DNA of 64,000 nt, from assembly GCA_937959265.1 (NCBI GenBank), contig CALGMA010000020.1, positions 82,473 to 146,472 on the forward strand. Reading direction: 5' to 3'. Positions 4,610-20,409 of the stretch are shown here, in pieces. The position numbers were made by a program, and so were the translations under genes. The stretch is from an uncultured Anaerolineae bacterium. Its GTDB lineage: Bacteria > Chloroflexota > Anaerolineae > J036 > Brachytrichaceae. How positions within the stretch are numbered: the first letter of the stretch is position 1; each line of letters opens with the position of its first letter. A model generated the notes under the pieces. The model was given only the letters and a program-made list of their open reading frames with translations. It did no database searches and was not told the DNA's origin.

Positions 4610-4615
4610 AGTGAC

Positions 4616-5341
4616 ATGGTGATCGATCGCAATTCCCCTGTTCCGCTCTACTACCAGCTCAAGCAGCAGATGCTGGAGAAGATCGAGAAGGGCGAATGGA
4701 AGCCCGGCGACAGCGTGCCGACCGAGCAGGAGCTACAGCAGAGCTACAACCTCAGCCGGACGACCGTGCGTCAGGCGCTGGCCGAGATGGTGATGGAGGG
4801 CCGGCTGACCCGCCAGCGCGGGCGGGGCACCTACGTCGCCCAGCCCAAGTTCCAACACGACCCGCTGCGCCATCGCGGGATTGGGCAGTATTTGCTGGAG
4901 CAGGGGCTGACGCCCGGCTGGAAGGTGCTTGACGAGCGTCACATCGCTGCGCCGGCTGAAATTGCCGCCTCGCTCTACCTGCCGCGCAACGCGCGCGTGT
5001 ACTGCTTGCAGCGCTTACGCTTGGCCAGCGAAGAGCCGATCGGTTACCTGGTCTCGTATGTGCCCGAGGCGCTGGCCGAGGCGATTGACCGCAGCGCGCT
5101 GGACAAAGGCGGCTCGACCGACTACCTCAAGCGCCTGCCGCAGATGGGCGATTACTGCGTTGAGCGCTCCATCGAAGCAGTCGCGGCTGGCGAGCCGGAG
5201 TCCAAGCTGCTGCGCGTCAAGCGCGGCACGCCGATGCTGTCCATCGAGCGGCTGATCTTGGCGCGCGATGGCATGCCGATTGAATTTTTGAGGGCGCGCT
5301 ATCGCGGCGACCGCATGAAATACCAAATCAATTGCTCATGA
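4616..5341 (+). CDS. GntR family transcriptional regulator with UTRA-like effector domain
   Basis: PLYYQLKQQMLEKIEKGEWKPGDSVPTEQELQQSYNLSRTTVRQALAEMVMEGRLTRQRGRGTYVA winged-helix motif; UTRA-type C-terminus. Confidence 0.9.
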   Translation: MVIDRNSPVPLYYQLKQQMLEKIEKGEWKPGDSVPTEQELQQSYNLSRTTVRQALAEMVMEGRLTRQRGRGTYVAQPKFQHDPLRHRGIGQYLLEQGLTPGWKVLDERHIAAPAEIAASLYLPRNARVYCLQRLRLASEEPIGYLVSYVPEALAEAIDRSALDKGGSTDYLKRLPQMGDYCVERSIEAVAAGEPESKLLRVKRGTPMLSIERLILARDGMPIEFLRARYRGDRMKYQINCS

Positions 5342-5817
5342 ATCGGACGGCTAATGCGCAGCTTGTAAACATGACCATGCGAGACTACGGCACACCGCAA
5401 CTCAAGCCCTATCAGTGCTTCATGGGGCGTTGGGAGGGCTTGTGCAAGACCTTCGGCCCGGACGGCGTGTTCATCGAGTCCACCGCCGTGCACATGGACG
5501 TGTACTGGACAGCCGAGGACACATGGCATCTGCACGAGGATTTCGAGAACCTCTACGGCATCGGCCGGCAGGTGTATGACAGCGACTTCCGCGTTGTGGG
5601 CAAGAACTGCTATGCGGAGAACGATCTGATCAAAGTCGTCGGCACCGAGCTTACGCCCTACAACTACAACTTCATCATTGATAGCGCCGTCACCCAGTCC
5701 ATCGTCTTCAACAACCATTACTTCCTCGACCCCAACACGCGCCGGATCATCACGCACAAAATGCGCGACGGCAAGACAACCGTCTTCCAGATACAGGATT
5801 TCGTCCGAGTCGGCTAG
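5338..5817 (+). CDS. Lipocalin-like (DUF3598-type) protein
   Basis: Begins with FMGRWEGLCKTFGPDGVFIEST (GxWxG...F..DG), beta-rich; ATGA overlap with the GntR stop. Confidence 0.55.
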   Translation: MNRTANAQLVNMTMRDYGTPQLKPYQCFMGRWEGLCKTFGPDGVFIESTAVHMDVYWTAEDTWHLHEDFENLYGIGRQVYDSDFRVVGKNCYAENDLIKVVGTELTPYNYNFIIDSAVTQSIVFNNHYFLDPNTRRIITHKMRDGKTTVFQIQDFVRVG

Positions 5818-5840: not shown

Positions 5841-6653
5841 ATGATCGTCCAGTCTGCTCCCCTCGGTTCGCCGCACTTCGTGATCACCCAGGTGGATCAC
5901 GCGCGGTTCAGCGGGCAATTTGCGCGCGCGTTTGGCAATTCGCGATTCGCCGCGCCGCAGCCGCATGAACTGATGGCCTATGTGACGGCGCATCACGACG
6001 AGGGGTGGGCTGCGGTGGACGCTGCGCCGAAGCACGACCCGCGCACCGGTCTGCCTTATCACCTGACGCAAACGCCGATGCCCGACCTGCTGCGCACCGG
6101 CGCCGGCTCGCCCGATTTCAACCAGCGTCATCATCCCTTCTGCGGGCTGCTCTCCTCGATGCATACCTACGGCCTATATCACGGCCGATATGGCCTGAGC
6201 GACAAAATCGTTATCAACATGGTGCCGCCGGAATATCAAGCAGACGCGCGGCGCATGTTGCAGGGTGAGCTGGAGCGCCAAGCATCGCTGAAGGCGCAAC
6301 TCCGCAGCCATCCCGAGACGGCTAAGTGGGCGAGCGACGCATTCCTGTTCCGTTGCTACAAGCTGTTGCAGTTCTTCGACATGCTCGCCCTCTATTTCAA
6401 CACGACTCATGTCACCCAGCGATTACCGGCGACGCTGACGCATGTGCCGGCCGGTCCGAATGACGACGTAGACATCACGATCACGCCCGTCGGCGATGCC
6501 TACGCGCTCTCGCCTTTTCCGTTTGCCGAGAGCGGCATGACCTTCTGGTGCGAGGGGCGCTATCTCAGCCCACGCGCCGAAGAGACCGATTGGGGTGCCG
6601 TGATGCGCGAGACGCCATGCGAGCGCGAAACGGTGAAATTGATCGCGCAGTGA
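5841..6653 (+). CDS. DUF3891-like protein
   Basis: HHDEGWAAVDAAPKHDPRTGLPYHLTQTP and FCGLLSSMHTYGLYHGRYG resemble the DUF3891 family. Confidence 0.65.
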   Translation: MIVQSAPLGSPHFVITQVDHARFSGQFARAFGNSRFAAPQPHELMAYVTAHHDEGWAAVDAAPKHDPRTGLPYHLTQTPMPDLLRTGAGSPDFNQRHHPFCGLLSSMHTYGLYHGRYGLSDKIVINMVPPEYQADARRMLQGELERQASLKAQLRSHPETAKWASDAFLFRCYKLLQFFDMLALYFNTTHVTQRLPATLTHVPAGPNDDVDITITPVGDAYALSPFPFAESGMTFWCEGRYLSPRAEETDWGAVMRETPCERETVKLIAQ

Positions 6654-6704: not shown

Positions 6705-7586
6705 ATGACGCTTTCACTCTTCGGCCAGTGGATTGGCAACGCCGAGGTGTTCGCCGGCGATGGCCGCTTCGTTGGGAACGGCATGGACATGCGTCGCGTC
6801 CAGCAGGTGGACGATTGCCGTGCGCGCATTGATGTCGCGTTCATCGGCCCGTTTAAGGTCAGCGGCCACTACTTCATCCGCGACCGCGGCGATCATCGCA
6901 TTTACGAGGGGCCGGTCAACGTCGGCTATGCCGAGACGCTGTGTGAGGGCGTGGTGGATGCGCATGCCTACTGGCCGGCGCTGGGTCTGAGCCAGCGCTT
7001 CATGCTGGCCGTGTTGCCCGACGGCGATACCCAGGCGTCCCTTGCCCTGATGTCGCGCGGCGATCAACTGGTCTATGTCGTGGTCGGCCAGAACCGGCGC
7101 GTGGTTGGCGAGGCGGGATTGCCGGAGCTGGTGTGCGGCACGTCGCTTGACCTGGCCGATGACCCCACGGCTGGCCGCTCGGTGATGCTCCTGCATCGCC
7201 AAGGCGCTTGGCAGGGAGAGCTGATTGCATTGGATGCGCAGCGTCGCCTGACCGGACGGGTGGCCTATTGTGAATCGTTCTTCGCCGATGGCCGCGTCGT
7301 GATGGAGGGTGGGCGTTTCGACCCGACGCGCCGTGAGTTCTGCCTGAAAACCAACGGCTGGCAGGCCTGGACGACGCCTGATTGTGAGGTCGCCGGCAGT
7401 TGCGGCCTGGCCGGCGGACGCGCTTCTCACGGCTATTTCCATCATCTGCCGGTTCAGTTGCGCGTCTGGCGCCGCGAAGTCGTCACGCTCGACGGGACGC
7501 GCAAGGTGTTGCTGCAGCATTGGTATCGCGGCGGGGAGCGCATCGGCAGCGAGTTCGGCGTGCTCGCGTTCAGCCCTGGAGGATGA
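6705..7586 (+). CDS. Lipocalin-like protein, YxGPxxxG-motif family
   Basis: LFGQWIGNAEVFAGDGRFVGNG start motif; YEGPVNVGYAETLCEG shared with neighbours. Confidence 0.5.
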   Translation: MTLSLFGQWIGNAEVFAGDGRFVGNGMDMRRVQQVDDCRARIDVAFIGPFKVSGHYFIRDRGDHRIYEGPVNVGYAETLCEGVVDAHAYWPALGLSQRFMLAVLPDGDTQASLALMSRGDQLVYVVVGQNRRVVGEAGLPELVCGTSLDLADDPTAGRSVMLLHRQGAWQGELIALDAQRRLTGRVAYCESFFADGRVVMEGGRFDPTRREFCLKTNGWQAWTTPDCEVAGSCGLAGGRASHGYFHHLPVQLRVWRREVVTLDGTRKVLLQHWYRGGERIGSEFGVLAFSPGG

Positions 7587-7589
7587 GCG

Positions 7590-8438
7590 ATGGCAGGCGA
7601 CGCCTTTCTTGGCTGCTGGCGGGTGACCGAGTATGTCTTTGACGACCTCGGCGCGCTTGTCGGCGTGAATTATCAGCAGCGCGAGCTGGAGCGCCTCGAT
7701 GAATCGCGTATCCGAGTGACGCAGCGCTGTCAACCGGACGCTATGTTGGCGCGGCATCCCATGGCGGCCTTCGCCGGCGAATGGGTCTTCGATCTCGCGC
7801 TCGAAGGCCGGACGCGTCGCTATCTCGGGCCGGACGTAGTGGGCGCCGCGGCGAGCTGGGGCAACAACGCGATGACCGGCCGCGGCGTTTGGCCGCGCTT
7901 CGGCCACAACTTCGTTTCGTGGTCGGTGATGCTGACCCCGCGACGGCAGTTGACCGGCGGGCGATTCTTCCGCGCCGGCGCGTGCATGGCGCACATCATC
8001 GGCGTCGGGCAGGCGCTGGCGCCCACAGACGAGTCGGCGGGTTATCCCTCGCTCGATCTCGCGGCCCGTCCGGAATCATTCGCGCGCGAATGGCGCGGCG
8101 CGCGGACGCGCTTTGACGCCGGGGGTGATTGCCTGGGCGAGGAGCCGTTAGCGCGCCGCTATCACGCGAACGGTTGGCGCGAGGACGATTGGCCGGTGGA
8201 GTGGACGGCCTGCGGCGATTATCTGCGCGTCGCTGGGTTCGGCCTGGATGCTGTGGCCCGGCGGGTGGGTCCGTCGTTCGAGCTGGAGGGCGCGCTGGCC
8301 AGCGGCGCCCAGGTCTCTATGCTCGAGGTCGTGGATGCGACGACGCGGACGCTGACCGGCATCCATCGCGTGATCGAAGCGGAACGCTTGCAGCGCGTGG
8401 CGGTGATCCGGCTAGGCGCTGTTGTGGAGGGAGAGTGA
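7590..8438 (+). CDS. Lipocalin-like protein, YxGPxxxG-motif family
   Basis: FLGCWRVTEYVFDDLGALVG start motif; YLGPDVVGAAASWGN. Confidence 0.5.
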   Translation: MAGDAFLGCWRVTEYVFDDLGALVGVNYQQRELERLDESRIRVTQRCQPDAMLARHPMAAFAGEWVFDLALEGRTRRYLGPDVVGAAASWGNNAMTGRGVWPRFGHNFVSWSVMLTPRRQLTGGRFFRAGACMAHIIGVGQALAPTDESAGYPSLDLAARPESFAREWRGARTRFDAGGDCLGEEPLARRYHANGWREDDWPVEWTACGDYLRVAGFGLDAVARRVGPSFELEGALASGAQVSMLEVVDATTRTLTGIHRVIEAERLQRVAVIRLGAVVEGE

Positions 8439-8439
8439 C

Positions 8440-9486
8440 ATGCTGAAAAACTTTTGGTGGCCGATCGAATTCAGCGAAGCCATCACGCGCGAACCGAAGC
8501 AGTTGCGCGTGATGGGCAAAGCGTTTTGGGCCTATCGCCAAACGAACGGTCAAGCGGTGATCATGCGCGACCTGGATATGGCTGCGCGCCGGCCGCTCGG
8601 CGCGGTGCGCGTCGAAGGCGATGACCTGATCGCCCAAGACGGCCGGCGCTACGCGCCGGATGGTTCGGCAAGCGAAGCGTATGCGCTGGCCTATCCGACG
8701 CAAGACCGCTACGGCTGGTGCTTCGTCTTCTTCGGCGACCTGCCGGAGTCTGAACGCATCCCCATCCCCAACTTGCCTTACATCGAGGACACCGCCACTT
8801 ACAAGGTCGTGCATGGCAACTTCGAGTGGAACGTGCACTACGCCCGCGCGCTGGAGAACGGCGTGGACGCTGCGCACACGCCGTTTGTGCATGGTGGCTC
8901 GTTCGGCAACCCGGACGAACCAGAAATTGAGGATTACCAAGTCGAATCTACTGAGACCAGCGCCATGGCGACGATCCATCTCAAGCCCACGCCGGCCAAG
9001 GGAATGTGGAGCCGCATCTACACCAGCAAGAAGCGCGACACGGTGGTGAAAACGGTCGTCGGCTGGTGGATGCCGAATATCTCCATCCTAGAAGTGCATC
9101 TGCCGTTGGGCACGCTGATGATCTACAACGCCCATGTGCCGGTGGATGACATGAAGACGGTGAGCAAATATATCGGCCTGCGCACCTTCTTCAAGGGCAG
9201 TTGGGCCGATAGCAACATGCACCAGCGCGTGATCAAGATTTTTAAGCAAGACCAGAAAGTGGTCGAGGCGCAGCGCCCGGAGATTCTGCCCTACGACTTG
9301 GGCGCCGAATTGCACGTGCGCAGCGACGCGATTCAGATCGCGTTCCGCAAGACCCGTCAGCATTTCTTCGACCGGGGCTGGGGGCTGTATCCGCGCGGCA
9401 AAGCGCAGGACGACATTGAAATCCCTTCGCCCTATCGGCTGGCGTTGCGCCGGGATGCTGCGCGTTTGGAGGGCGTGACTGCTTGA
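8440..9486 (+). CDS. Rieske-oxygenase-like protein: mononuclear Fe site retained, Rieske ligands absent
   Basis: MLKNFWWP start shared with the paralog at 10547; NGVDAAHTPFVH (D143, H146, H151) and FKQDQKVVEAQRP (D271) retained; Rieske region reads DLDMAARRPLG...DLIAQDGRRYAPDG with no CxH/CxxH. Confidence 0.85.
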   Translation: MLKNFWWPIEFSEAITREPKQLRVMGKAFWAYRQTNGQAVIMRDLDMAARRPLGAVRVEGDDLIAQDGRRYAPDGSASEAYALAYPTQDRYGWCFVFFGDLPESERIPIPNLPYIEDTATYKVVHGNFEWNVHYARALENGVDAAHTPFVHGGSFGNPDEPEIEDYQVESTETSAMATIHLKPTPAKGMWSRIYTSKKRDTVVKTVVGWWMPNISILEVHLPLGTLMIYNAHVPVDDMKTVSKYIGLRTFFKGSWADSNMHQRVIKIFKQDQKVVEAQRPEILPYDLGAELHVRSDAIQIAFRKTRQHFFDRGWGLYPRGKAQDDIEIPSPYRLALRRDAARLEGVTA

Positions 9487-9508
9487 GGGGGTAGGCAAGA
9501 CAGGGGGT

Positions 9509-9531
9509 GGGCGAAGGCACTGCCTTCGCCC
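9509..9531. repeat. Perfect inverted repeat GGGCGAAGGCA-C-TGCCTTCGCCC (hairpin)
   Basis: Direct reading; intergenic; not followed by a T-tract. Confidence 0.75.
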
Positions 9532-9562
9532 CCTTCCGGCTTACTTGAGGAATGTTGCGCCG

Positions 9563-10531
9563 ATGATTCGTTCGCTCTACACGGCCGTCAAAGCTGAAGG
9601 CGCGCCGGCGCCGTTCGACACCTTGCACCTCAAGGTGTTCTATCCGGCTGCGCCGACCGGCGGCGAGACGGAGCGCATGACCGGCGTCATCCCGGCTGAC
9701 CTGGCGCGCGGGCGGATGCCGGTGGTGATCTTCTTCAACGGCATCAACGTGGGAGCCGAGTCGTATGCTTGGTTGGCGATCGCGCTGGCGCGGCAGGGCA
9801 TCGTCGTCGTGTTGTTCAACTGGGTGGGCGAGACCCTGCCCGGCGTGATCGGCCTGACGAACGGGCTAGACCTGACGCGGGTGACGCCGCAAACCTACGG
9901 CAGCGCGCCGACGGCGCCGGCTATCGCGCCGATGCTGGACGAGTTGGAACGGCTGGATCGGTCTGGGCCGTTGCGAGGCGCATTGGCGCTCGATCGCGTG
10001 ACGCTGGGCGGCCATTCGGCCGGCGGCACGGTCGCGCTGCACAACGCTAACCCGCGCTACTTCCCACAAGTGGTCGCCGGCTTCAGCTACGCCGGCCATA
10101 CCATGGCGGCGACGATGCTGGGCTTTGCGCCGGGGACGGTGCTGGCCTGCGCGTCCGACCTGCCGTTGTTGCTGATGTGCGGCGGGCGCGATGGCGTAGT
10201 CGCTGCCAGCGGAGCGCGCTACGGCCAGGCGGGTGATCCCGTTGCGCCTGTGCGCTGCACGTTTGACGAAGGCATCGCCGGCGCGCGCGGTGATCGCCAT
10301 CTGGTGATCTGGCATGGCGCCAATCACTTTACTCTGGCGCATCCGCTCGACGAGACGGCCGGGCGCAGCTTCCTCGACTGGCCGCCGGAGGGCGATGAGT
10401 CGGCCATGCGCGCGCGCATGGCCGAGGTGATCGGCGCGTTCATCCTGTCGGCGGCCCGCGGCGATGCCGCCGCGTCTGCGCGCCTGCGCGCGTTATCCAA
10501 CGATGCGTCTGTGGAATGGCGCACGAAGTAA
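9563..10531 (+). CDS. Alpha/beta hydrolase, chlorophyllase/dienelactone-hydrolase-like
   Basis: PVVIFFNGINVGAESYAWLAIALARQGIVVVLFNWVG oxyanion region and GGHSAGG nucleophile elbow; His in HGANHFTL. Confidence 0.75.
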   Translation: MIRSLYTAVKAEGAPAPFDTLHLKVFYPAAPTGGETERMTGVIPADLARGRMPVVIFFNGINVGAESYAWLAIALARQGIVVVLFNWVGETLPGVIGLTNGLDLTRVTPQTYGSAPTAPAIAPMLDELERLDRSGPLRGALALDRVTLGGHSAGGTVALHNANPRYFPQVVAGFSYAGHTMAATMLGFAPGTVLACASDLPLLLMCGGRDGVVAASGARYGQAGDPVAPVRCTFDEGIAGARGDRHLVIWHGANHFTLAHPLDETAGRSFLDWPPEGDESAMRARMAEVIGAFILSAARGDAAASARLRALSNDASVEWRTK

Positions 10532-10546
10532 TCAAGGTGAGATGAG

Positions 10547-11608
10547 ATGCTCAAGAACTTTTGGTGGCCGCTGGCCTTCAGCTCCGAGGTGAGTCGCAAG
10601 CCGATCCGCGTCACGGCCCTGCAAGAGGAGTTCGTCGCATACCGGCTGCCGGATGGGCGCGCGAATGTGCTGAGCGACCTATGCGTGCATCGCGGCGGCG
10701 CGTTGAGCGATGGCTGGACGCAAGAGGATCGCATCGTGTGTCCCTATCATGGCTGGGAGTTTCGCGCCGATGGCGCGTGTGTGCGCATCCCGGCCAATCC
10801 GCCCGATGCGCCAGTGCCGCGCAAGGCGCGCGTGGACGCCTATCCGACGGTCGAGCAGATGGGATGGGTGTGGGCTTTCCTCGGCGACATCCCTGCCGCC
10901 GAGCGTCCGCCGATGCCGACGCTCCAGGATGCCGGCGCGGCGACAATCGTTACCGGCGCGATCTCCTGGCGCGCGCCATACGAACAGGTGATTGCACATC
11001 TGGCCGAGCCGGCGGTGGCCGCGCTTGCGCTGGACGGCGAGTTCGTCGCCGAAGCGCCGCGGGTCGGCGATGTGTCGTCTGCCCTCAGCGACTGGGGCGC
11101 GCGCCTTATGGCGACGCTCACCCCGCCGGATCGCGTCGAGCGCAGCCTGTTGGGGCTGATGAAGAAGCGCATGCCCTGCGCGCCTTGCGAGGCGCTGGTC
11201 GCGTTCCACATGCCGTGCATTACGCTCTACCGCGCCGGTGATGACCACATGATGATGGCGCACCTGCCTGTGGACGCTCAAACGACTGTGACGAAGTGGA
11301 TGGTGGCTCGTAAGTCCGGCCAGACCGAACCCCCAATCGCCCACCAGCGCATGACGGCTGCGCTCGAGCGGATGCGACCGCAGGTCGAGGGTCAACCGTC
11401 GCCGCAGCATCCGATTGCGCAGGCCTTCGTCCGGCTGCGCGATGAAGCCATCGCGCGCGGTTGGGGCATAGATGCCCACCTCATCCAGGCGGAATACGCC
11501 AACATCAAAGCAGTCGTCATCCCTTCTCCGGCGCGGCGCGAGGTGCCCGAGCTGGCCGCTGCATGGGTGATGAAGGAAGCGCCCACCATCAAGCCGCGCG
11601 ACGCCTAG
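10547..11608 (+). CDS. Rieske-oxygenase-like protein: Rieske ligands retained, mononuclear Fe ligands absent
   Basis: CVHRGGAL...CPYHGWEF (C46, H48, C65, H68) intact; catalytic region reads HLAEPAVAALALDG (E154, V157, L162) and ALERMRPQVEGQ (M in place of Asp). Confidence 0.85.
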   Translation: MLKNFWWPLAFSSEVSRKPIRVTALQEEFVAYRLPDGRANVLSDLCVHRGGALSDGWTQEDRIVCPYHGWEFRADGACVRIPANPPDAPVPRKARVDAYPTVEQMGWVWAFLGDIPAAERPPMPTLQDAGAATIVTGAISWRAPYEQVIAHLAEPAVAALALDGEFVAEAPRVGDVSSALSDWGARLMATLTPPDRVERSLLGLMKKRMPCAPCEALVAFHMPCITLYRAGDDHMMMAHLPVDAQTTVTKWMVARKSGQTEPPIAHQRMTAALERMRPQVEGQPSPQHPIAQAFVRLRDEAIARGWGIDAHLIQAEYANIKAVVIPSPARREVPELAAAWVMKEAPTIKPRDA

Positions 11609-11630: not shown

Positions 11631-11718
11631 CAAACGTGCAAACGTTCAAACGTTCAAACGTGTAAACGTGCAAACGCGCAAACGTTCAAACCTGCAAACC
11701 TGCAACCCTGTAAACGCC
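11631..11718. repeat. Tandem repeat of an 8-bp unit (CAAACGTK), about 11 copies
   Basis: CAAACGTG CAAACGTT CAAACGTT CAAACGTG TAAACGTG CAAACGCG CAAACGTT CAAACCTG CAAACCTG CAACCCTG TAAACGCC, ending 4 nt before ATG 11723. Confidence 0.9.
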
Positions 11719-11722
11719 ACCC

Positions 11723-12472
11723 ATGTCACTCGCCCAACGACTCAGCCACGAGACGCTGGACAAGATCGTCCGGCGGTTCGCCCTGCGCGAGATCGGCGAT
11801 CCGTTCATCTCGCTGACCAGCCCGATGGCGCCGCAGCCGGTCGGCGCATGCCGACTGTTTGCCTCGCCGCCGGAGAGCGCAGCCGATGGTTCGGAGCGCG
11901 TGCGCAAGGTGGTGTACATCGGCATCACCGTGCCGCCCATCGGCCTGGACTCGCACATGTTCTTCGCCTTTACGCCGCCGGAGAGCGCTGTGCCGCATTT
12001 CACGCTGGATAGCGTGCTGGCCGGGCCGAGCTTCGCCTTTCACCTGGACCTGATCCCCCGCGTGGACTTGGGGGCGAATCTGGCTTACATGAACGAAGTC
12101 TTCATCCCGCTGACGGCGAGCTTCGACCAGGCGAAGCAAATCGCGGGGTTGGCGCCGGCCAGCCTCTCGCCGCGGCAGTATGCCCTGATGTCGCCGTGGA
12201 TGTTGGCCTACCGCGCGACGGAGGAAGCCTACGCCCAATGCGCGCCGCACATCGAAGCATATCTGCGCCACTGGTTTAGCCTGGTCGAAAATGGCATTCG
12301 CGCGCCGATAGCCATGACGCCGGCGCAGTTGGCCGAACGCGACCGCGCGAATCGTCACGCCATCTTCAGCTACGAAGTGGATCCGGTGTGGAGCCAGATC
12401 GAACGGCTGCTCGGCAGAGCGATGAACCTGCGGCTCATCGAAGTGCTGCGCAACCCGCAAGTCGAATCCTGA
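11723..12472 (+). CDS. Red chlorophyll catabolite reductase / ferredoxin-dependent bilin reductase-like protein
   Basis: Resembles my recollection of plant RCCR: VPHFTLDSVLAGPSFAFHLDLIPRVDLGANLAYMNEVF vs APNFVVELIQSSSKSLVLILDLPHRKDLVLNPDYLKEYY; ERDRANRHAIFSYEVDPVWSQIERLLG vs ERRDKSFRRKSIEDDLDLQFPRMFG. By eye only. Confidence 0.55.
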   Translation: MSLAQRLSHETLDKIVRRFALREIGDPFISLTSPMAPQPVGACRLFASPPESAADGSERVRKVVYIGITVPPIGLDSHMFFAFTPPESAVPHFTLDSVLAGPSFAFHLDLIPRVDLGANLAYMNEVFIPLTASFDQAKQIAGLAPASLSPRQYALMSPWMLAYRATEEAYAQCAPHIEAYLRHWFSLVENGIRAPIAMTPAQLAERDRANRHAIFSYEVDPVWSQIERLLGRAMNLRLIEVLRNPQVES

Positions 12473-12489: not shown

Positions 12490-13443
12490 ATGTCTCAGCC
12501 CAGCGAGTTCCAAAAGCGCATCAGCGGCGAGTGGCACGGTTATCCGAGCACGTTCGACCGCGAAGGCAATCATCTCGGTTACAACAAAGTGGATCGCCAA
12601 AGCATCTTCGATCCGGCGACCGGCGCGACGACTTACATCATGCACACGCGCTTCCACGATTTGCCGTCGGTGGACTTCCATCGCCTGGCCACGCCCGACG
12701 GCTTCAAGTTCGGCGTGAGCGACGGCGACCGAGACCGTGTTTACTTGGGGCCGGATTTCTACGGCAGCGGCCAGCCATACGGCAGCCTGGTCAATTCGCG
12801 CTACTACTCCCCGTTTTGGTGCTGCGACCTGAATACGCTGAACTGGGTGCTGGACGATGGCCAGACGCAGGTGTATTCCTCGTTGCTTTACGAAGGGCCG
12901 ACGCTCAAATATGTCTTCAACGGGCTGTATCGCGTGGCGCATGATTACCGCACCAACCCAGCCACGCGCGTCGAGATAGACGCATTTTGCGAGCGCGAGC
13001 GCGTCAACGGCCCGCAGCCGCATGCGCTGCCCGCCAAGCGCAGCGGCATGTTTGAAGGGGACATGCACATCTATCGCGCCGATCAGACGCGCGCCGGCGC
13101 TGCCCATGTGCGCATCACATACGCGCCCACCAGCCTGCTGACGGCCGCGCAGACCGTCGAGGTCGAAGCGCCGGCCGAGACCGGCCTGAGCCGGCGTTAC
13201 GCCTTCCATCGCGCCCGCGAGGTCAATCGGCACACCTTTCACGGCCCCGATGTGTTCGGCAACGGGCTGGCTTACGGGCGCGCGCTTTTCATCTCGCAGC
13301 ATTTCGCCGGCGCGCCGCTGCGCATTGAGGGGCGCGAGTTCCTGCTGGATGAGCGTTACACGTTAGCCAACGTGTGGATGGTGCATCAGAGCAATCGGCT
13401 GGCCTACGTCATGTTCGGCGTCTTGCATTGGACGGAGCAGTAA
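12490..13443 (+). CDS. Lipocalin-like protein with duplicated YxGPDxxGxGxxYG motif
   Basis: ISGEWHGYPSTFDREGNHLG start; YLGPDFYGSGQPYG and FHGPDVFGNGLAYG in the two halves. Confidence 0.5.
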   Translation: MSQPSEFQKRISGEWHGYPSTFDREGNHLGYNKVDRQSIFDPATGATTYIMHTRFHDLPSVDFHRLATPDGFKFGVSDGDRDRVYLGPDFYGSGQPYGSLVNSRYYSPFWCCDLNTLNWVLDDGQTQVYSSLLYEGPTLKYVFNGLYRVAHDYRTNPATRVEIDAFCERERVNGPQPHALPAKRSGMFEGDMHIYRADQTRAGAAHVRITYAPTSLLTAAQTVEVEAPAETGLSRRYAFHRAREVNRHTFHGPDVFGNGLAYGRALFISQHFAGAPLRIEGREFLLDERYTLANVWMVHQSNRLAYVMFGVLHWTEQ

Positions 13444-13449
13444 TCACCG

Positions 13450-14895
13450 ATGAGTCGCTACGGGTTGTTCATCGGCGGCCGCGAAGTCGCCGCAGGGACG
13501 GGCGAGGTGTTCCCCAGCGTCGCGCCGGAGACCGGCGACGTGCTGGGCTATGCCGCCCGCGCCGGTTTGGACGACGTGAACGCGGCGGTTGAGGCCGCGC
13601 GCGCGGCGTTCGCTGCTTGGGCCGGTTTGCCTCCCGGCGAGCGCGAGCGCATTCTGCTGCGCTGCGCCGATGCCATCGAGATGGCTGCGCCGCGCCTGCT
13701 CGAGCTGGTGATTGACGAGAGCGGCTCGACGATCGCCAAGGCGCGTTACGAAGTGCAATACAGCGCGGCTTTGCTGCGCGCCGCGGCCGGCGAAGCGCGC
13801 CGCCTCTACGGCGACACCTTCCCCAACGACCGCCCGCATCGTCTGTCGTTGGTGGTGCGCGAACCGCTGGGCGTCGTAGCCGTCATCTCGCCGTTCAACG
13901 CGCCGTTGGCGCTGCTGGTGAAGATGATCGCCTTCCCGTTGGCCGCCGGCAACACGGTCGTCGCCAAGCCGAGCGAGGAGACGCCGCTGGTGGCGATTGA
14001 GCTGGCGCGCGCGTTGCACGAGGCCGGGTTGCCGGCGGGCGTCTTCAACGTGATCACCGGCTACGGCGAAGAATGCGGTGAGCCGTTGGTGAAACATCCC
14101 GACGTGCGCGGCGTTGCCTTCACCGGCTCCACCGCCGTCGGCGCGCGCATCGCCGCGCTGGCGGCGCCGCACATGAAGCGCCTGCAGCTCGAACTGGGCG
14201 GCAAGAATCCCTTGATCGCGCTGCGCGATGTGGACGTGACGCAGGCTGCCGAGGTCGCTGCCGTCGGCGCGTTCTATCACGCCGGCCAGATTTGCATGAG
14301 CAGCGCGCGCGTGATCGTCGAGCAACCCATTGCCCGGTCGTTCGCCGAGACGTTGGCGCGCAAGGCCGAAACCTTGCACTTGGGCGACCTGCGCGACGCG
14401 CGCACGGCCTACGGCCCGCTGATCCACGCGCGCGCCGTTCAAAAGGTGCATGCGCACGTGCAAGACGCCCTGGCGCGCGGCGCGACGCTGCTGTGTGGGG
14501 GGAGCATCCATCACGGCAACACCTACCGCCCGACTGTGCTCTTCGAGCCGCCGCGCGCCGGCCCGGCCTGGTGTGAGGAGACATTTGGGCCGGTGGTGAG
14601 CGTCGTCGGCGCTGCCGATCTGGACGAAGCGATTGCCCTCGCCAACGACAGCGCATACGGCTTGAGCGCCGGCGTGCTCACAAACGACCTGCGGCGCGGC
14701 CTCACGGCGGCGCGGCGCATTCGCGCCGGTTCGGTTCACGTCGGCACGCACTCATTTTGGAGCGATGCGCTCGCGCCGATTGGCGGCTACGGCATGAGTG
14801 GCATTGGCCGCAGCGGCGGCAAATACTCCGTCGAGCATTTCACCGAGCTGAAATGGATGAGCATCGAGCTGGGCGAGACGCCCCGACCGTTTTAA
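13450..14895 (+). CDS. NAD(P)-dependent aldehyde dehydrogenase
   Basis: LQLELGGKNPLIAL, HAGQICMSSARVIV (catalytic Cys), EETFGPVVSVV. Confidence 0.92.
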   Translation: MSRYGLFIGGREVAAGTGEVFPSVAPETGDVLGYAARAGLDDVNAAVEAARAAFAAWAGLPPGERERILLRCADAIEMAAPRLLELVIDESGSTIAKARYEVQYSAALLRAAAGEARRLYGDTFPNDRPHRLSLVVREPLGVVAVISPFNAPLALLVKMIAFPLAAGNTVVAKPSEETPLVAIELARALHEAGLPAGVFNVITGYGEECGEPLVKHPDVRGVAFTGSTAVGARIAALAAPHMKRLQLELGGKNPLIALRDVDVTQAAEVAAVGAFYHAGQICMSSARVIVEQPIARSFAETLARKAETLHLGDLRDARTAYGPLIHARAVQKVHAHVQDALARGATLLCGGSIHHGNTYRPTVLFEPPRAGPAWCEETFGPVVSVVGAADLDEAIALANDSAYGLSAGVLTNDLRRGLTAARRIRAGSVHVGTHSFWSDALAPIGGYGMSGIGRSGGKYSVEHFTELKWMSIELGETPRPF

Positions 14896-14899
14896 TCCC

Positions 14900-15829
14900 A
14901 TGAACATCCCAACGCGCGTCACCATAGTGGAAGTCGGCCCCCGCGACGGGTTTCAGATGGAGCGGGAGTTCATCCCGACCGATTTCAAAGTCGAGATCAT
15001 TGATTTGCTCTCGTCATCCGGTTTGCCGGCTATCGAAGCCACGTCCTTTGTCAATCCCAAAGTCGTTCCGCAGATGGCCGACAGCGACGCCGTGATGCAG
15101 CGCATCCGGCGGCGCCCCGGCGTGCGCTACAGCGCGCTGATCCTGAACGTGAAGGGCGCGCAGCGCGCGATTGCCGCCGGTGTGGATGCGGTGCGCTTCG
15201 TGGTCTGCGCCAGCGAGACCTACAACCAAAAGAACATGAACATGAGCGTGGCCCAATCGCTGGACGCGCTGCGCGAAGTGGTTGCGATGTGCGCGCCGAA
15301 CGGCATCCACGTCGAGCCGGCCGTCTCTGTGGCGTTCGGTTGCCCCTTTGAGGGCGAAGTGCCGGAATCGCGCGTCATCGCCCTGGCCGAGGCGTATGCG
15401 GCGTTGGGGCTGCGCGACATTTGTATCGCCGACACGGTCGGCTTGGCCAATCCGCGCGCCGTCCGCCGACTGCTGGGCGAGCTGCGCGCGCGTTTGCCGG
15501 ATTGCACCTTTGCATTACACCTGCACGACACACGCGGCCTGGGGCTGGCTAACGCGCTGGCGGCGATGGACATCGGTGTGACGACCTTCGAGTCGTCGCT
15601 CGGCGGGTTGGGCGGTTGCCCGACAACTAAGGTGTCCACAGGCAACATCAGCACCGAGGACTTGGTGAACCTGTGCGATGAGATGGGCATCGAAACCGGC
15701 GTGGACGTTGAGATCATCCGCGAGGCCTCGCGTCGTATGCAGGAGTTCCTCGGCCGGCCGCTGCCCAGCCATGTCCTGGCCGCCGGCACGCGCCGCATGT
15801 TGTTCGCCGGCGCAAGTCAGCCATGTTGA
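14900..15829 (+). CDS. HMG-CoA lyase-like / pyruvate-carboxyltransferase (DRE-TIM) family lyase
   Basis: TIVEVGPRDGFQMEREFIPT; GGLGGCPTTKVSTGNISTEDLVNL signature. Confidence 0.9.
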   Translation: MNIPTRVTIVEVGPRDGFQMEREFIPTDFKVEIIDLLSSSGLPAIEATSFVNPKVVPQMADSDAVMQRIRRRPGVRYSALILNVKGAQRAIAAGVDAVRFVVCASETYNQKNMNMSVAQSLDALREVVAMCAPNGIHVEPAVSVAFGCPFEGEVPESRVIALAEAYAALGLRDICIADTVGLANPRAVRRLLGELRARLPDCTFALHLHDTRGLGLANALAAMDIGVTTFESSLGGLGGCPTTKVSTGNISTEDLVNLCDEMGIETGVDVEIIREASRRMQEFLGRPLPSHVLAAGTRRMLFAGASQPC

Positions 15830-15893
15830 TTCGCCTATCGCTCGCGCCTAGTTCGCTATGCGGACGCATGAGGTGAGGCGCAAAACCCAAACA

Positions 15894-17198
15894 ATGTCAA
15901 TGACGCAACAAACGATTGCCGAGAAGATCCTTTCGCGCGCGGCGCGGCGGCGCGTGCGCGCCGGCGAGATCGCCATTGTGCATGTGGACGGCGCGATGGC
16001 GACCGACGCGACCGCCCCGCTGGCCATTCAGGCCTTCCGCGAGATGGGCGGGCGGCGCGTGTGGGATGCGCATCGTGTGGCGTTCGTCCTCGACCATGCT
16101 GCGCCCGCGCCCAACGAGCGCATCGCTAACCTGCACGCGATGATGCGCCGATTCGCGCGCGAGCAAGGTTGCCATTTCTACGATGTGGGCGAGGGCATTT
16201 GCCATCAGCTCATGGTCGAGCGCGGCCATGTGCGCCCCGGCGACCTGTTCCTCGGCGCAGACTCGCACACGCCGACCTACGGCGCGCTAAACGCTTTTGG
16301 CGCCGGCGTCGGCTCCACCGACCTGGCCGGCGTCTTGCTCACCGGCAAGACCTGGCTCCGCGTGCCTCACAGCATCAAGATCGAGCTGGTCGGCGCATGG
16401 CCGCTCGGCGTGACCGCCAAAGACCTGGCGCTCTTCCTGGTCGGGCGCATCGGCCTGGAGGGCGCGAACTACCACTGCGTCGAGTTCACCGGCGAGGCCA
16501 TTGAGCCGCTGCGCTTGAGCCAGCGCATGACTCTGGCGAACATGGCCAGCGAAATGGGCGCTAAGGCCGGCATCGTCGCGCCGGCAGGCTTGCGCTTGCC
16601 GTATGACTTCGCGCCGGTCAGCGCCGACCCCGGCGCGGCATACGCGCGCGCGCTGCGCTTCGATGTGTCGCGCCTGACGCCGCACGTGGCGCTGCCGCAT
16701 TCGCCGGACAACGTGGCGCCGATTGCGCAGGTCAAGGGCGTCAAGGTCAACGCCGGCTTCATCGGCAGTTGCACCAATGCGCGCCTGGACGATCTCCAGC
16801 AGGCTGCGGCTGTGCTGCGCGGCCGCAGGCTTGCGCCCGGCGTGCGCTTGGTGATTGCGCCGGCGTCGCGCGCCGTCTTCAACGCGGCGCTGCGCGATGG
16901 CACGATTGCTGCGCTGAGCGAAGCCGGCGCGACGTTCATCGGCGCCGGTTGTGGCCCGTGCGTCGGCACGCACGAGGGCGTGCCGGGCGACGGCGAGGTG
17001 GTCATCTCCTCGACCAACCGCAACTTTCAGGGGCGCATGGGCAACCCGCGCGCGCAGATTTATCTCGCCTCGCCGGCCGTGGTGGCCGCCAGCGTGCTGG
17101 CCGGCGAAATCTGCGAACCCGCCGATGTCGTCTCCGACGCTTCAAACAGTCTCTCTTTGATGTCAGAGGCGCCGACTGACGCGATTCCGATCCTATGA
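15894..17198 (+). CDS. Aconitase-superfamily hydratase large subunit (LeuC/HacA-like)
   Basis: GADSHTPTYGALNAFGAGVGSTD; cluster Cys in GSCTNAR and GCGPCVGTHEG. Confidence 0.9.
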   Translation: MSMTQQTIAEKILSRAARRRVRAGEIAIVHVDGAMATDATAPLAIQAFREMGGRRVWDAHRVAFVLDHAAPAPNERIANLHAMMRRFAREQGCHFYDVGEGICHQLMVERGHVRPGDLFLGADSHTPTYGALNAFGAGVGSTDLAGVLLTGKTWLRVPHSIKIELVGAWPLGVTAKDLALFLVGRIGLEGANYHCVEFTGEAIEPLRLSQRMTLANMASEMGAKAGIVAPAGLRLPYDFAPVSADPGAAYARALRFDVSRLTPHVALPHSPDNVAPIAQVKGVKVNAGFIGSCTNARLDDLQQAAAVLRGRRLAPGVRLVIAPASRAVFNAALRDGTIAALSEAGATFIGAGCGPCVGTHEGVPGDGEVVISSTNRNFQGRMGNPRAQIYLASPAVVAASVLAGEICEPADVVSDASNSLSLMSEAPTDAIPIL

Positions 17199-17707
17199 AC
17201 ACGATACTTGGCTTGGCCCACGTCTACGGCGTGGATGATGTAGATACCGACCGGATCATCCCCGGCAAATACACCAAGACGCTGGACATGCGCGAACTGG
17301 CCGGACACGTCCTAGAGGACCTTGACCCGACGTTCGCCGGCCGCGTGCGCCCTGGCGACGTGCTGGTCGTCGGCAACAATTTCGGCTGCGGCTCCTCGCG
17401 CGAGCAGGCCCCGGCGGCGATCAAGGCGGCCGGCGTCGCCTGCGTCGTCGCCCGTTCGTTTGCGCGCATCTTCTATCGCAACGCCATCAACATCGGCCTG
17501 CCGCTGATTGAGCTGGCCGAGGCGCATGACATCGCCAATGGCCACACGGTGCGCGTCGAGCTGCAACGCGGGGAAGTGACCAACTGCGCGACCGGCCGCG
17601 CCTTCCGCGCTGCGCCCATGCCGGCGGTGATGGTGGACATCCTGCGCGCCGGCGGGCTGGTCAACTACCTGAAGCAACATGGGGACTACGTGATCCGTGA
17701 AAGTTGA
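17195..17707 (+). CDS. Aconitase-superfamily hydratase small subunit (LeuD-like)
   Basis: VDTDRIIPGKYTKTLDMRELAGHVLEDLDP; NNFGCGSSREQAP; overlaps the large-subunit stop. Confidence 0.92.
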   Translation: MNTILGLAHVYGVDDVDTDRIIPGKYTKTLDMRELAGHVLEDLDPTFAGRVRPGDVLVVGNNFGCGSSREQAPAAIKAAGVACVVARSFARIFYRNAINIGLPLIELAEAHDIANGHTVRVELQRGEVTNCATGRAFRAAPMPAVMVDILRAGGLVNYLKQHGDYVIRES

Positions 17708-17726
17708 AAGAAGACCCAATAGCACT

Positions 17727-18911
17727 ATGTCTCTCCCATCTTTCGCCAATCTCAAGGTCATCGAATTCAGCCATGCCATCCTCGGGCCGTCGTGCGGCCT
17801 GATCTTGGCCGACCTCGGCATGGACGTGCTCAAGATCGAGCCGGTCGAGGGCGATCCGACGCGCGTGCTCAAAGGCTTCGGGGTGGGCTACTTCCCCATG
17901 TTCAATCGCAACAAGAAGAGCCTGGCGTTGAACCTGAAGAGCGACGCCGGCCGGGCGATTGTGCTGAAATTAGCCGAGCAGGCCGACGTGCTGCTGGAGA
18001 ACTACGCGCCGGGGACGATGGACCGCCTGGGGCTGGGCTACGAGACGCTGTCGCAGCTTAACCCGCGCCTGATTTACTGCGCGCTCAAGGGCTATTTGCC
18101 CGGCCCCTACGAGAAGCGCGTGGCGTTGGACGAGGTTGTGCAGATGCAGAGCGGCATCGCCTACATGACCGGGCCGGTGGGCCAACCCTTGCGGGCGGGC
18201 GTCTCGGTAGTGGATGTCCTGGCCGGCGCGTTCAGCGCGTTGGGGGTGTTGGCCGCGTTGCGCGAGCGCGACCGCACCGGACGCGGGCAACTCGTGCGCG
18301 GCGGCCTGTTCGAGTCGGCGGCTTATCTCGTCGGCCAGCACATGGTGTATCAGCCCCTCCTCGGCGAACCCATCCCGCCCATGCCGGGCAAACCCCGCTC
18401 GTGGGCTATCTACCAGCCTTTCGAGACGCGCGACGGCGACCTTGTCTTCGTCGGCGTCACCAGCGACAAGCACTGGCAGCGCTTCTGCGAAGTCTTCAAT
18501 CGCCCTGACCTGCTGGCCGACGAATCGCTGGCCACCAACAACCAGCGTTACCACGCCTTCGAGCGCTTGACTGCCGATCTGACCGCCATGTTCAAGCGGA
18601 TGAGCACGGCCGAGGTGCTGGCCGGCTGCGAGCGCGCCGAGATTCCGTTCGCGCCGGTCGCGCGCCCCGAGGATTTGCTCGAAGACCCGCACCTGTTGGC
18701 GGCCGGCGCGTTGTGGCGCGTGCAAGTCGGCGAAGCGGTGAGCTGCAACCTGCCGACGCTGCCGCTGGCTTTCAGCAGCGGCAAGTTGGAGCTGCGCCTG
18801 CAACCGCCCAGGGTCGGCGAACACAGCGCCGAGGTGCTGCGCGCGCTGGGATACACCGATGCCGAGATCGCGCAGTTGAAACGCGAGGGCGTGATAGGCG
18901 GGTGCGAATAA
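17727..18911 (+). CDS. Class III (CaiB/BaiF) CoA-transferase family protein
   Basis: KVIEFSHAILGPSCGLILADLGMDVLKIEPVEGDPTR; NKKSLALNLKSDAGR; ALDEVVQMQSGIAYMTG. Confidence 0.92.
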   Translation: MSLPSFANLKVIEFSHAILGPSCGLILADLGMDVLKIEPVEGDPTRVLKGFGVGYFPMFNRNKKSLALNLKSDAGRAIVLKLAEQADVLLENYAPGTMDRLGLGYETLSQLNPRLIYCALKGYLPGPYEKRVALDEVVQMQSGIAYMTGPVGQPLRAGVSVVDVLAGAFSALGVLAALRERDRTGRGQLVRGGLFESAAYLVGQHMVYQPLLGEPIPPMPGKPRSWAIYQPFETRDGDLVFVGVTSDKHWQRFCEVFNRPDLLADESLATNNQRYHAFERLTADLTAMFKRMSTAEVLAGCERAEIPFAPVARPEDLLEDPHLLAAGALWRVQVGEAVSCNLPTLPLAFSSGKLELRLQPPRVGEHSAEVLRALGYTDAEIAQLKREGVIGGCE

Positions 18912-18936
18912 TCGCAGACGCACGGAGCAAGGCAGC

Positions 18937-20409
18937 ATGGCACAGCTCGATTTGATCATCAAGCATGCGCGCGTGGTTCGCCCGAACGCGAGCGACATCC
19001 ATCCCATGGACATTGGCATCGCCGACGGCCGGATCGTCGCGCTAGCGCCGACCCTTGCTGCGGAGGCCGCGCAGACCTTCGACGCGGCCGGTTTGCTGGC
19101 CTTCCCTGGGGCCATTGATGCGCATACCCACATCGGCATCTACGTCCCTCCCCACGAGGACGCGCTCACCGAATCGGCGGCTGCCGTCAGCGGCGGCGTG
19201 ACCACGTTGATCACCTATGCGCGCACCGGCAGCCTCTATCTGAATCGCGGCGGGTCGTGGCGCGAGTTTTACCCGGAGCTGCTGCGCCAAAGCGAAGGGC
19301 GCTACTACACCGACTATGGCTACCACATGTCGCCCATCGAGGGCCGGCAGATCGCCGAGATGGAATACATGTTGTGCGAGGGCGGCGCGCCCAACTTCGG
19401 CGAGGTGTTCATGTTCTACGGCCTGCACGGCCTACACGGCCGCAGCGATGCGCAGGCTCAATGGCTCATGCTCGGCGAAGGCGACCATTACGACCTGGCC
19501 CATTTTGATTTCATCTGTCGCGAGGCGGCGCGGTTGCAGCGCGCATATCCTGATTGGGCGCCTTACATCCAGGTCAGCTTTCATTGCGAGACGCCGGAGC
19601 TGCTGCGCGCGTATGAGGCTCGCGTTCAACGCGACGCCGATATGCAGCAGCGCACCCCCCTGCAGCAATACAGCGCTGCCCGGCCGCCGCACAGTGAGGC
19701 CATCGCCATCAGCATCGTGGGCGCCTTGGCCCACGCCGCCGGCTTGAGCCAGGTCAACATCTTGCACATCACGTCGCGCCAAGCCATGGAGGCCGCGCTG
19801 CGCGTCCGCGATAGCTATCCAGAGGTGACGTTCGGCCTGGAGGCGACCGCCGGCCATCTGCTCCTGGACGACTGCTCGCCATGCGGCGTGTGGGGCAAGG
19901 TCAATCCGCCCCTGCGCTCGCGCGAAGACGTTGAGTGCCTGTGGGCGCACGTGCTGAACGGCGCCATCGAGTGGCTGGTGACCGATCACGCCAACTGCCC
20001 GCGCGCGATGAAGGTGGACCCGACCGATCCCGAAGACATCTGGAAGGCAAAAGCCGGTTTTGGCGGCGCGGAATATCTCCTGCCGGGCATCTTCAGCGAG
20101 GGGACGAAGCGCGGCCTCTCGCCTAACCGCGTGGCTGCGTTGGTGAGTTGGAATCCGTCGCGTCGCTTTGGCCTATTGCGCAAGGGCGACATCGCCGAGG
20201 GCTTCGACGCGGATATTGCATTGCTCGATCCGAATGAGGCATGGACGATTCGCGCCGCCGACTCGCTCTCGGCGCAGGGCTATACGCCGTTCGAGGGGAT
20301 TCGGGTGCAGGGCCGCGTGAAGCATACCTTCGTGCGCGGCCGGCGTGTGTTCAGTGAGGGTCGGGTCGTCGGGCAGCCGGTTGGTCGCTATGTCCGACGA
20401 CCCATGTAA
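18937..20409 (+). CDS. Dihydropyrimidinase/hydantoinase-like cyclic amidohydrolase
   Basis: DLIIKHARVVRPNASDIHPMDIGIADGRIVAL...GAIDAHTHIG; LHITS; WLVTDHANCP; carbamyl-Lys position reads NFGEVFMFYG. Confidence 0.85.
   Translation: MAQLDLIIKHARVVRPNASDIHPMDIGIADGRIVALAPTLAAEAAQTFDAAGLLAFPGAIDAHTHIGIYVPPHEDALTESAAAVSGGVTTLITYARTGSLYLNRGGSWREFYPELLRQSEGRYYTDYGYHMSPIEGRQIAEMEYMLCEGGAPNFGEVFMFYGLHGLHGRSDAQAQWLMLGEGDHYDLAHFDFICREAARLQRAYPDWAPYIQVSFHCETPELLRAYEARVQRDADMQQRTPLQQYSAARPPHSEAIAISIVGALAHAAGLSQVNILHITSRQAMEAALRVRDSYPEVTFGLEATAGHLLLDDCSPCGVWGKVNPPLRSREDVECLWAHVLNGAIEWLVTDHANCPRAMKVDPTDPEDIWKAKAGFGGAEYLLPGIFSEGTKRGLSPNRVAALVSWNPSRRFGLLRKGDIAEGFDADIALLDPNEAWTIRAADSLSAQGYTPFEGIRVQGRVKHTFVRGRRVFSEGRVVGQPVGRYVRRPM

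Follow-up and report, generated by a model that had tools for sequence, protein, structure and literature searches.

The locus lies in a 64,000-nucleotide stretch of a Roseilinea-like Chloroflexota genome (hereafter the window, meaning the whole stretch that was analysed), where a run of genes on the forward strand includes two homologous genes encoding proteins A and B (Table 1). Intergenic gaps are mostly below 80 bases, with 114 after B, and such spacing fits co-transcription of the genes as an operon, although transcription is inferred from spacing only. Direct repeats roughly 10 bp long also form a run between B and the gene after it, at 11635-11705 (CAAACGTTCAAACGTG...), and are possibly regulatory. 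Four conserved operon proteins (cal161, cal282, cal293 and cal317) are treated as unknown families because the calycin-like fold that was our initial guess for them received no profile support. No ferredoxin or reductase was identified in the operon, and scanning the window for plant-type ferredoxin patterns yielded two frames, both spurious-looking, and no convincing candidate.

Table 1. Genes of the operon in the window, with the basis for each assignment
Feature	Position	Strand	Basis
GntR-type regulator	4610..5341 (start approximate)	+	Named from sequence; same-place orthologue in most loci reaching that far
Conserved operon protein, unknown family (cal161)	5332..5817	+	Synteny
DUF3891 protein	5841..6653	+	PF13030 1.3e-34
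Conserved operon protein, unknown family (cal293)	6705..7586	+	Synteny
Conserved operon protein, unknown family (cal282)	7590..8438	+	Synteny
Protein A, predicted catalytic (mononuclear-iron) subunit, Rieske ligands lost	8440..9486	+	VanA_C match, ligand table, AF2 model
Alpha/beta hydrolase between A and B, candidate esterase	9545..10531	+	Weak Chlorophyllase-profile similarity; syntenic in pair and single-gene loci
Protein B, predicted Rieske-cluster subunit, catalytic triad lost, conserved C-terminal tail present	10547..11608	+	Rieske match, ligand table, AF2 model
Perhaps distant bilin-reductase/RCCR-group protein	11723..12472	+	Weak RCC_reductase matches in orthologues
Conserved operon protein, unknown family (cal317)	12490..13443	+	Two copies in Actinomycetota loci
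Aldehyde dehydrogenase	13450..14895	+	Named from sequence; present in relatives L017-L019, absent here in single-gene loci
Hydroxymethylglutaryl-CoA lyase-like enzyme	14900..15829	+	Profile 2.8e-104
Isopropylmalate dehydratase-type hydratase, large subunit	15858..17198	+	Profile 2.6e-160
LeuD/DmdB-type hydratase, small subunit	17195..17707	+	Profile 6.1e-60
CaiB-type CoA-transferase	17697..18911	+	Profile match
Allantoinase/hydantoinase-type cyclic amidohydrolase, candidate imidase	18898..20406	+	Profile 1.9e-62

Both A and B are encoded by open reading frames, begin with MLKNFWWP and align end to end with 27% identity (E 2e-31). In Pfam searches VanA_C was the sole domain found in A (E 2.4e-26), without a Rieske match, and Rieske was the sole domain found in B (E 5.5e-20), without a catalytic-domain match. 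According to the alignment and a site table, the four Rieske ligands, normally C/H/C/H, are replaced in A by D/A/A/D, and the iron site of A is intact (bridging Asp143 with His146, His151 and Asp271); B retains the Rieske ligands Cys46, His48, Cys65 and His68 (C-x-H...C-x2-H) and carries E/V/L/M instead of D/H/H/D at the bridging-Asp and iron-ligand positions. The sequence-only reading had claimed the shared start, the full-length alignment and exactly these reciprocal losses and retentions; this residue table thus shows it to be correct, residue by residue. The ligand pattern of the pair is uniform in the seven A and six B sequences compared site by site, and the same pattern was read from the translation of a seventh B (L055). 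In the A proteins of a sister genus (L021 and L022) the Rieske subdomain is mostly deleted and the iron triad is present. Judged by what defines a Rieske oxygenase alpha subunit, the cluster ligands are met by B but not A, and the 2-His-1-carboxylate site with bridging Asp by A but not B. The pair fits the arrangement described for the chlorophyllide a oxygenase that Micromonas pusilla makes as two chains (MpCAO), namely complementary homologous chains with the cluster on one and the iron site on the other. No match to the PaO profile (PF08417) was obtained for A (cut-off 0.1) or for 16 unsplit relatives (cut-off 0.01), and both match VanA_C.

Single-chain relatives possessing all eight functional residues occur in 26 other bacteria, 21 of them in the site table and five further distinct (a sixth extra protein, L073, is the L028 contig again and was not counted, and some of the 26 are near-identical MAGs). 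These proteins, from elsewhere in the class and from three Actinomycetota, are about equally near to A and B, being mostly ~45% identical to both (range against A ~38-51%); Rieske and VanA_C were both matched in 16/16 of those scanned with Pfam, and in PDB sequence searches the unsplit proteins matched GxtA/SxtT and NdmA best. Using as reference the 134 sites invariant across the 21 single proteins, we found that A retains 54/67 catalytic and 9/40 Rieske sites, that B retains 17/67 and 35/40, respectively, and that a conserved C-terminal tail is kept at 13 of 15 invariant sites in B and at none in A; 14 of the 134 are absent from both. The Fisher values in this study assume independence of sites and of genomes and serve for description only.

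Pair and single-gene loci have a common gene order, GntR-cal161-DUF3891-cal293-cal282-[A]-hydrolase-[B or single]-RCCR-like-cal317-HMGL-hydratase-CaiB, and the intact protein occupies B's slot of the same operon on 25 of the 26 single-gene contigs. The remaining contig (L023, equal to L047) lacks any other operon gene, and in the Actinomycetota loci, as on some short contigs, only part of the operon was seen. Several single-gene loci hold a second, clear RCC reductase homologue in A's slot, the gap between cal282 and the hydrolase. The sequence-only reading had named lone orthologues with all ligands intact as a refutation of an A/B complex; such proteins do exist, but only as expected of an unsplit state, given their place in the same operon and their similar distance from both chains. 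As a separate observation, the HMG-CoA lyase-like enzyme of one locus (L029:13678-15078) has a flavin reductase domain fused at its N-terminus, and the corresponding genes of L033 and L038 resemble this fusion in length and N-terminus; the window copy is without that domain.

The survey of co-occurrence proposed alongside the complex found A and B in an identical set of 7 of the 29 family genomes, spread over two genera, and no genome with one alone (Fisher 8e-7, kinship ignored); one of the 29 (G006) has one single related protein. Since the pair is present in a genome assembled as a single contig (G023), it is not an assembly artefact. A second B copy (L046 / L052), 84% identical to the window B, was observed in the Roseilinea NK_OTU-006 assembly (G018), where it and its neighbours lie on a separate short contig and perhaps derive from a mixed strain. 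Phototrophy was considered as a requirement for the pair and rejected: reaction-centre genes are present in 9/9 genomes of the genus and the pair in 5/9, and two sister-genus pair genomes are without reaction-centre genes.

Both genes are under purifying selection, with dN/dS by a simple counting method below 0.35 everywhere within the genus, for both genes and both halves. For A the catalytic half gave 0.05-0.15 versus 0.05-0.23 for the former Rieske half, and for B the Rieske half gave 0.02-0.11 versus 0.14-0.34 for the former catalytic half, so that the retained half had the lower value in every within-genus comparison except the closest one for A. The ligand losses are neither chance nor recent decay, and the pattern is consistent across the A and B sequences; the decay of one gene, which would have counted against the complex, was not seen. 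In the tree, A and B each form one clade (support 100/100 each). The closest unsplit proteins to A are of the L070-L072 type, with support 87/78; B branches deeper. A tree constrained to place A and B together was not rejected (AU p 0.079). A single local duplication of an unsplit gene remains a possible source of both, which the tree does not settle; the split itself is older than the divergence of the two genera carrying the pair.

Single-chain AF2 models of A (pLDDT 81) and B (pLDDT 84) are fairly confident, and each resembles complete two-domain Rieske oxygenases in the PDB, the best match of the A model being SxtT (6wnb). The altered catalytic half of B is therefore predicted to be still folded, with the reservation that unsplit relatives were present in the predictor's input alignments, and their presence biases the models toward a two-domain fold. 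In Rieske oxygenases of solved structure the assembly has C3 symmetry, and the cluster of each subunit lies ~12 Å from its neighbour's iron (PMC12445004). If A and B shared a ring of three, at least one B-to-A junction would form, yet the two chains could not alternate around it, leaving some sites idle unless A/B assembles in another way; a trimer of dimers has been proposed for MpCAO (PMC9615114).

What the operon acts on is less directly indicated. The window gene following B scores 12.9 bits against PF06405, below the curated cut-off of 24.9. Among its orthologues 9/13 have a weak RCC_reductase match (best 0.0029), one matches Fe_bilin_red at 0.0029, and the PDB match to phytochromobilin synthase has E 0.054. 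A clear RCC reductase homologue (best 3.7e-22 against PF06405; 3.7e-13 against RCCR in the PDB) is found in many single-gene operons and not in the window. Homologues above the curated PF06405 cut-off are nevertheless present in 6 of the 7 pair genomes versus none of the 22 other family genomes (Fisher 1.5e-5, kinship ignored). In the three Roseilinea-type genomes examined (L066, that is G000:C5:176000-194706, L067 and L068) this homologue sits at a second locus, where its neighbours are a hydrolase, an isochorismatase-type amidase, a further protein with a Rieske domain and an Asp/Glu-racemase-group protein; relatives of the amidase and of the Asp/Glu-racemase-group protein lie near single-gene or other pair loci. 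Because the RCC reductase homologue tracks the pair and sits in many single-gene operons, tetrapyrrole breakdown is suggested.

RCC reductase and bilin reductases act downstream of oxygen-dependent ring-opening enzymes (PMC10151467), and oxidative opening or trimming of a tetrapyrrole is the probable role of A and B, the substrate being inferred. It is possible, judging by family names only, that the cyclic amidohydrolase, LeuCD-type hydratase, CoA-transferase and HMG-CoA lyase-like enzyme could process substituted maleimides or maleates derived from pyrroles, for which the nicotinate and dimethylmaleate pathways serve as a model. A Staygreen Mg-dechelatase was not found in the family, though the control search was silent too. 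On a bolder reading, which we hold to be possible but less likely than not, the operon would oxidatively open a chlorophyll-type macrocycle and feed the pyrrole and maleimide pieces to central metabolism, and the Roseilinea ring-opening oxygenase would be an obligate two-chain Rieske enzyme independent of the algal case.

The algal case makes the pair less novel than the sequence-only reading assumed: MpCAO consists of two polypeptide chains (Kunugi 2013, cited in PMC9615114), and the purified enzyme together with VanB converts chlorophyllide a to b (PMC9615114). Kunugi 2013 reportedly placed the cluster on one chain and the iron site on the other. Like A/B, MpCAO is a Rieske oxygenase spread over two chains; however, it is algal and biosynthetic, whereas A/B is bacterial and probably catabolic, and the A/B proteins match VanA_C rather than the PaO domain. 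An independent origin of A/B is possible, but it is assumed, with no CAO tree behind it. The N7-demethylase NdmC/NdmD/NdmE of Pseudomonas putida CBB5 likewise has a catalytic subunit without its own cluster, which is supplied in trans (PMC4408171), but in that system the reductase itself carries the cluster as a fusion, whereas in A/B it resides on a full-length oxygenase-like partner lacking its own iron site. SxtT/GxtA, NdmA and dicamba monooxygenase-type enzymes share with A/B the fold and the between-subunit electron path but have both metal sites on every subunit. In plant PaO-RCCR chlorophyll breakdown, as here, a Rieske oxygenase gene is accompanied by an RCC reductase homologue, although the oxygenase here falls outside the PaO Pfam family. 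No report of a bacterial complementary two-chain oxygenase, or of this operon, was found in the literature searched, which is weak evidence since coverage left out most subscription journals. Thus, the two-chain principle has already been published for MpCAO and NdmC/NdmD, and A/B is probably a further, bacterial variant of it. The intact single-gene orthologues, this precedent and the operon's tetrapyrrole context all lay beyond what the sequence-only reading could reach.

Our data are best explained by A and B being two subunits of one Rieske oxygenase, an obligate A/B enzyme (probability roughly 0.8), because one intact protein replaces A and B in the same operon, the two always co-occur, their losses are complementary and selection acts on them reciprocally. 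These losses, the co-occurrence, the synteny with the unsplit enzyme and the selection are shown; the complex, its stoichiometry, the electron path, the activity and the substrate are inferred, so that the complex originally proposed is supported as the best explanation only. The bridging Asp normally connects the iron to a Rieske His of the adjacent subunit. In the proposed enzyme, B would contribute the cluster and C-terminal tail that it retained when its iron site was lost, and A the iron site and bridging Asp retained when its cluster was lost. Electrons would pass from a redox partner (none identified) to the B cluster and then across the A/B interface to the A iron, where O2 would be activated. 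In this way the between-subunit electron path of ordinary Rieske oxygenases may have been reused with its halves on separate polypeptides. Four points stand against this enzyme: there is no direct evidence of A-B contact, which single-chain models cannot test; the C3 form of known Rieske oxygenases does not let A and B alternate; the full but divergent catalytic-domain fold of B has no explained use; and the operon yielded no identified ferredoxin or reductase.

An unlikely alternative is an NdmC/NdmD-like system, in which A would be served by a Rieske domain on another protein and B would be a stand-alone carrier or scaffold rather than a stoichiometric subunit. It has in its favour that NdmC has no Rieske cluster and uses the extra cluster of the reductase NdmD (PMC4408171), and that the former catalytic half of B evolves faster than the remainder of the pair. 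However, B is not a small ferredoxin, since its model has the entire two-domain fold and its tail is kept at 13/15 sites; A and B are never apart, and the pair takes the place of one homologous enzyme in the same operon. A reductase bearing the cluster, as in the NdmC type, remains possible, although no reductase was identified near the pair.

We regard two further explanations as very unlikely. In one, the activity belongs to a different, intact Rieske oxygenase of the genome, and A or B is a pseudoenzyme that is either decaying or moonlighting; the genome does hold other Rieske genes, among them an intact one on contig C19 (G000:C19:70001-70912, L024). Yet that protein is just 28% identical to A and its surroundings are without the operon, dN/dS is well below 1 in both halves of both genes, and the A and B frames are open across two genera. 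In the other, A and B each have a separate new function, such as substrate binding by A and sensing by B, and form no oxygenase. This cannot be excluded from sequence data alone, but the retained halves are what the unsplit enzyme needs, and the bridging Asp of A makes sense beside a Rieske His, as inferred from known Rieske structures.

The obligate A/B enzyme, if confirmed, bears on how electrons cross between subunits and how many interfaces are productive in Rieske oxygenases, questions that are difficult to address in enzymes whose subunits all carry both sites. With a natural pair carrying one site each, every metal site could be separately loaded, mutated and measured, and comparison with the unsplit enzymes assigns residues to the two halves, including the C-terminal tail, which goes with the Rieske half. 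Should the substrate prove to be of the chlorophyll type, bacterial pigment turnover, of which the literature searched holds no genetic description, would have a candidate pathway in this operon.
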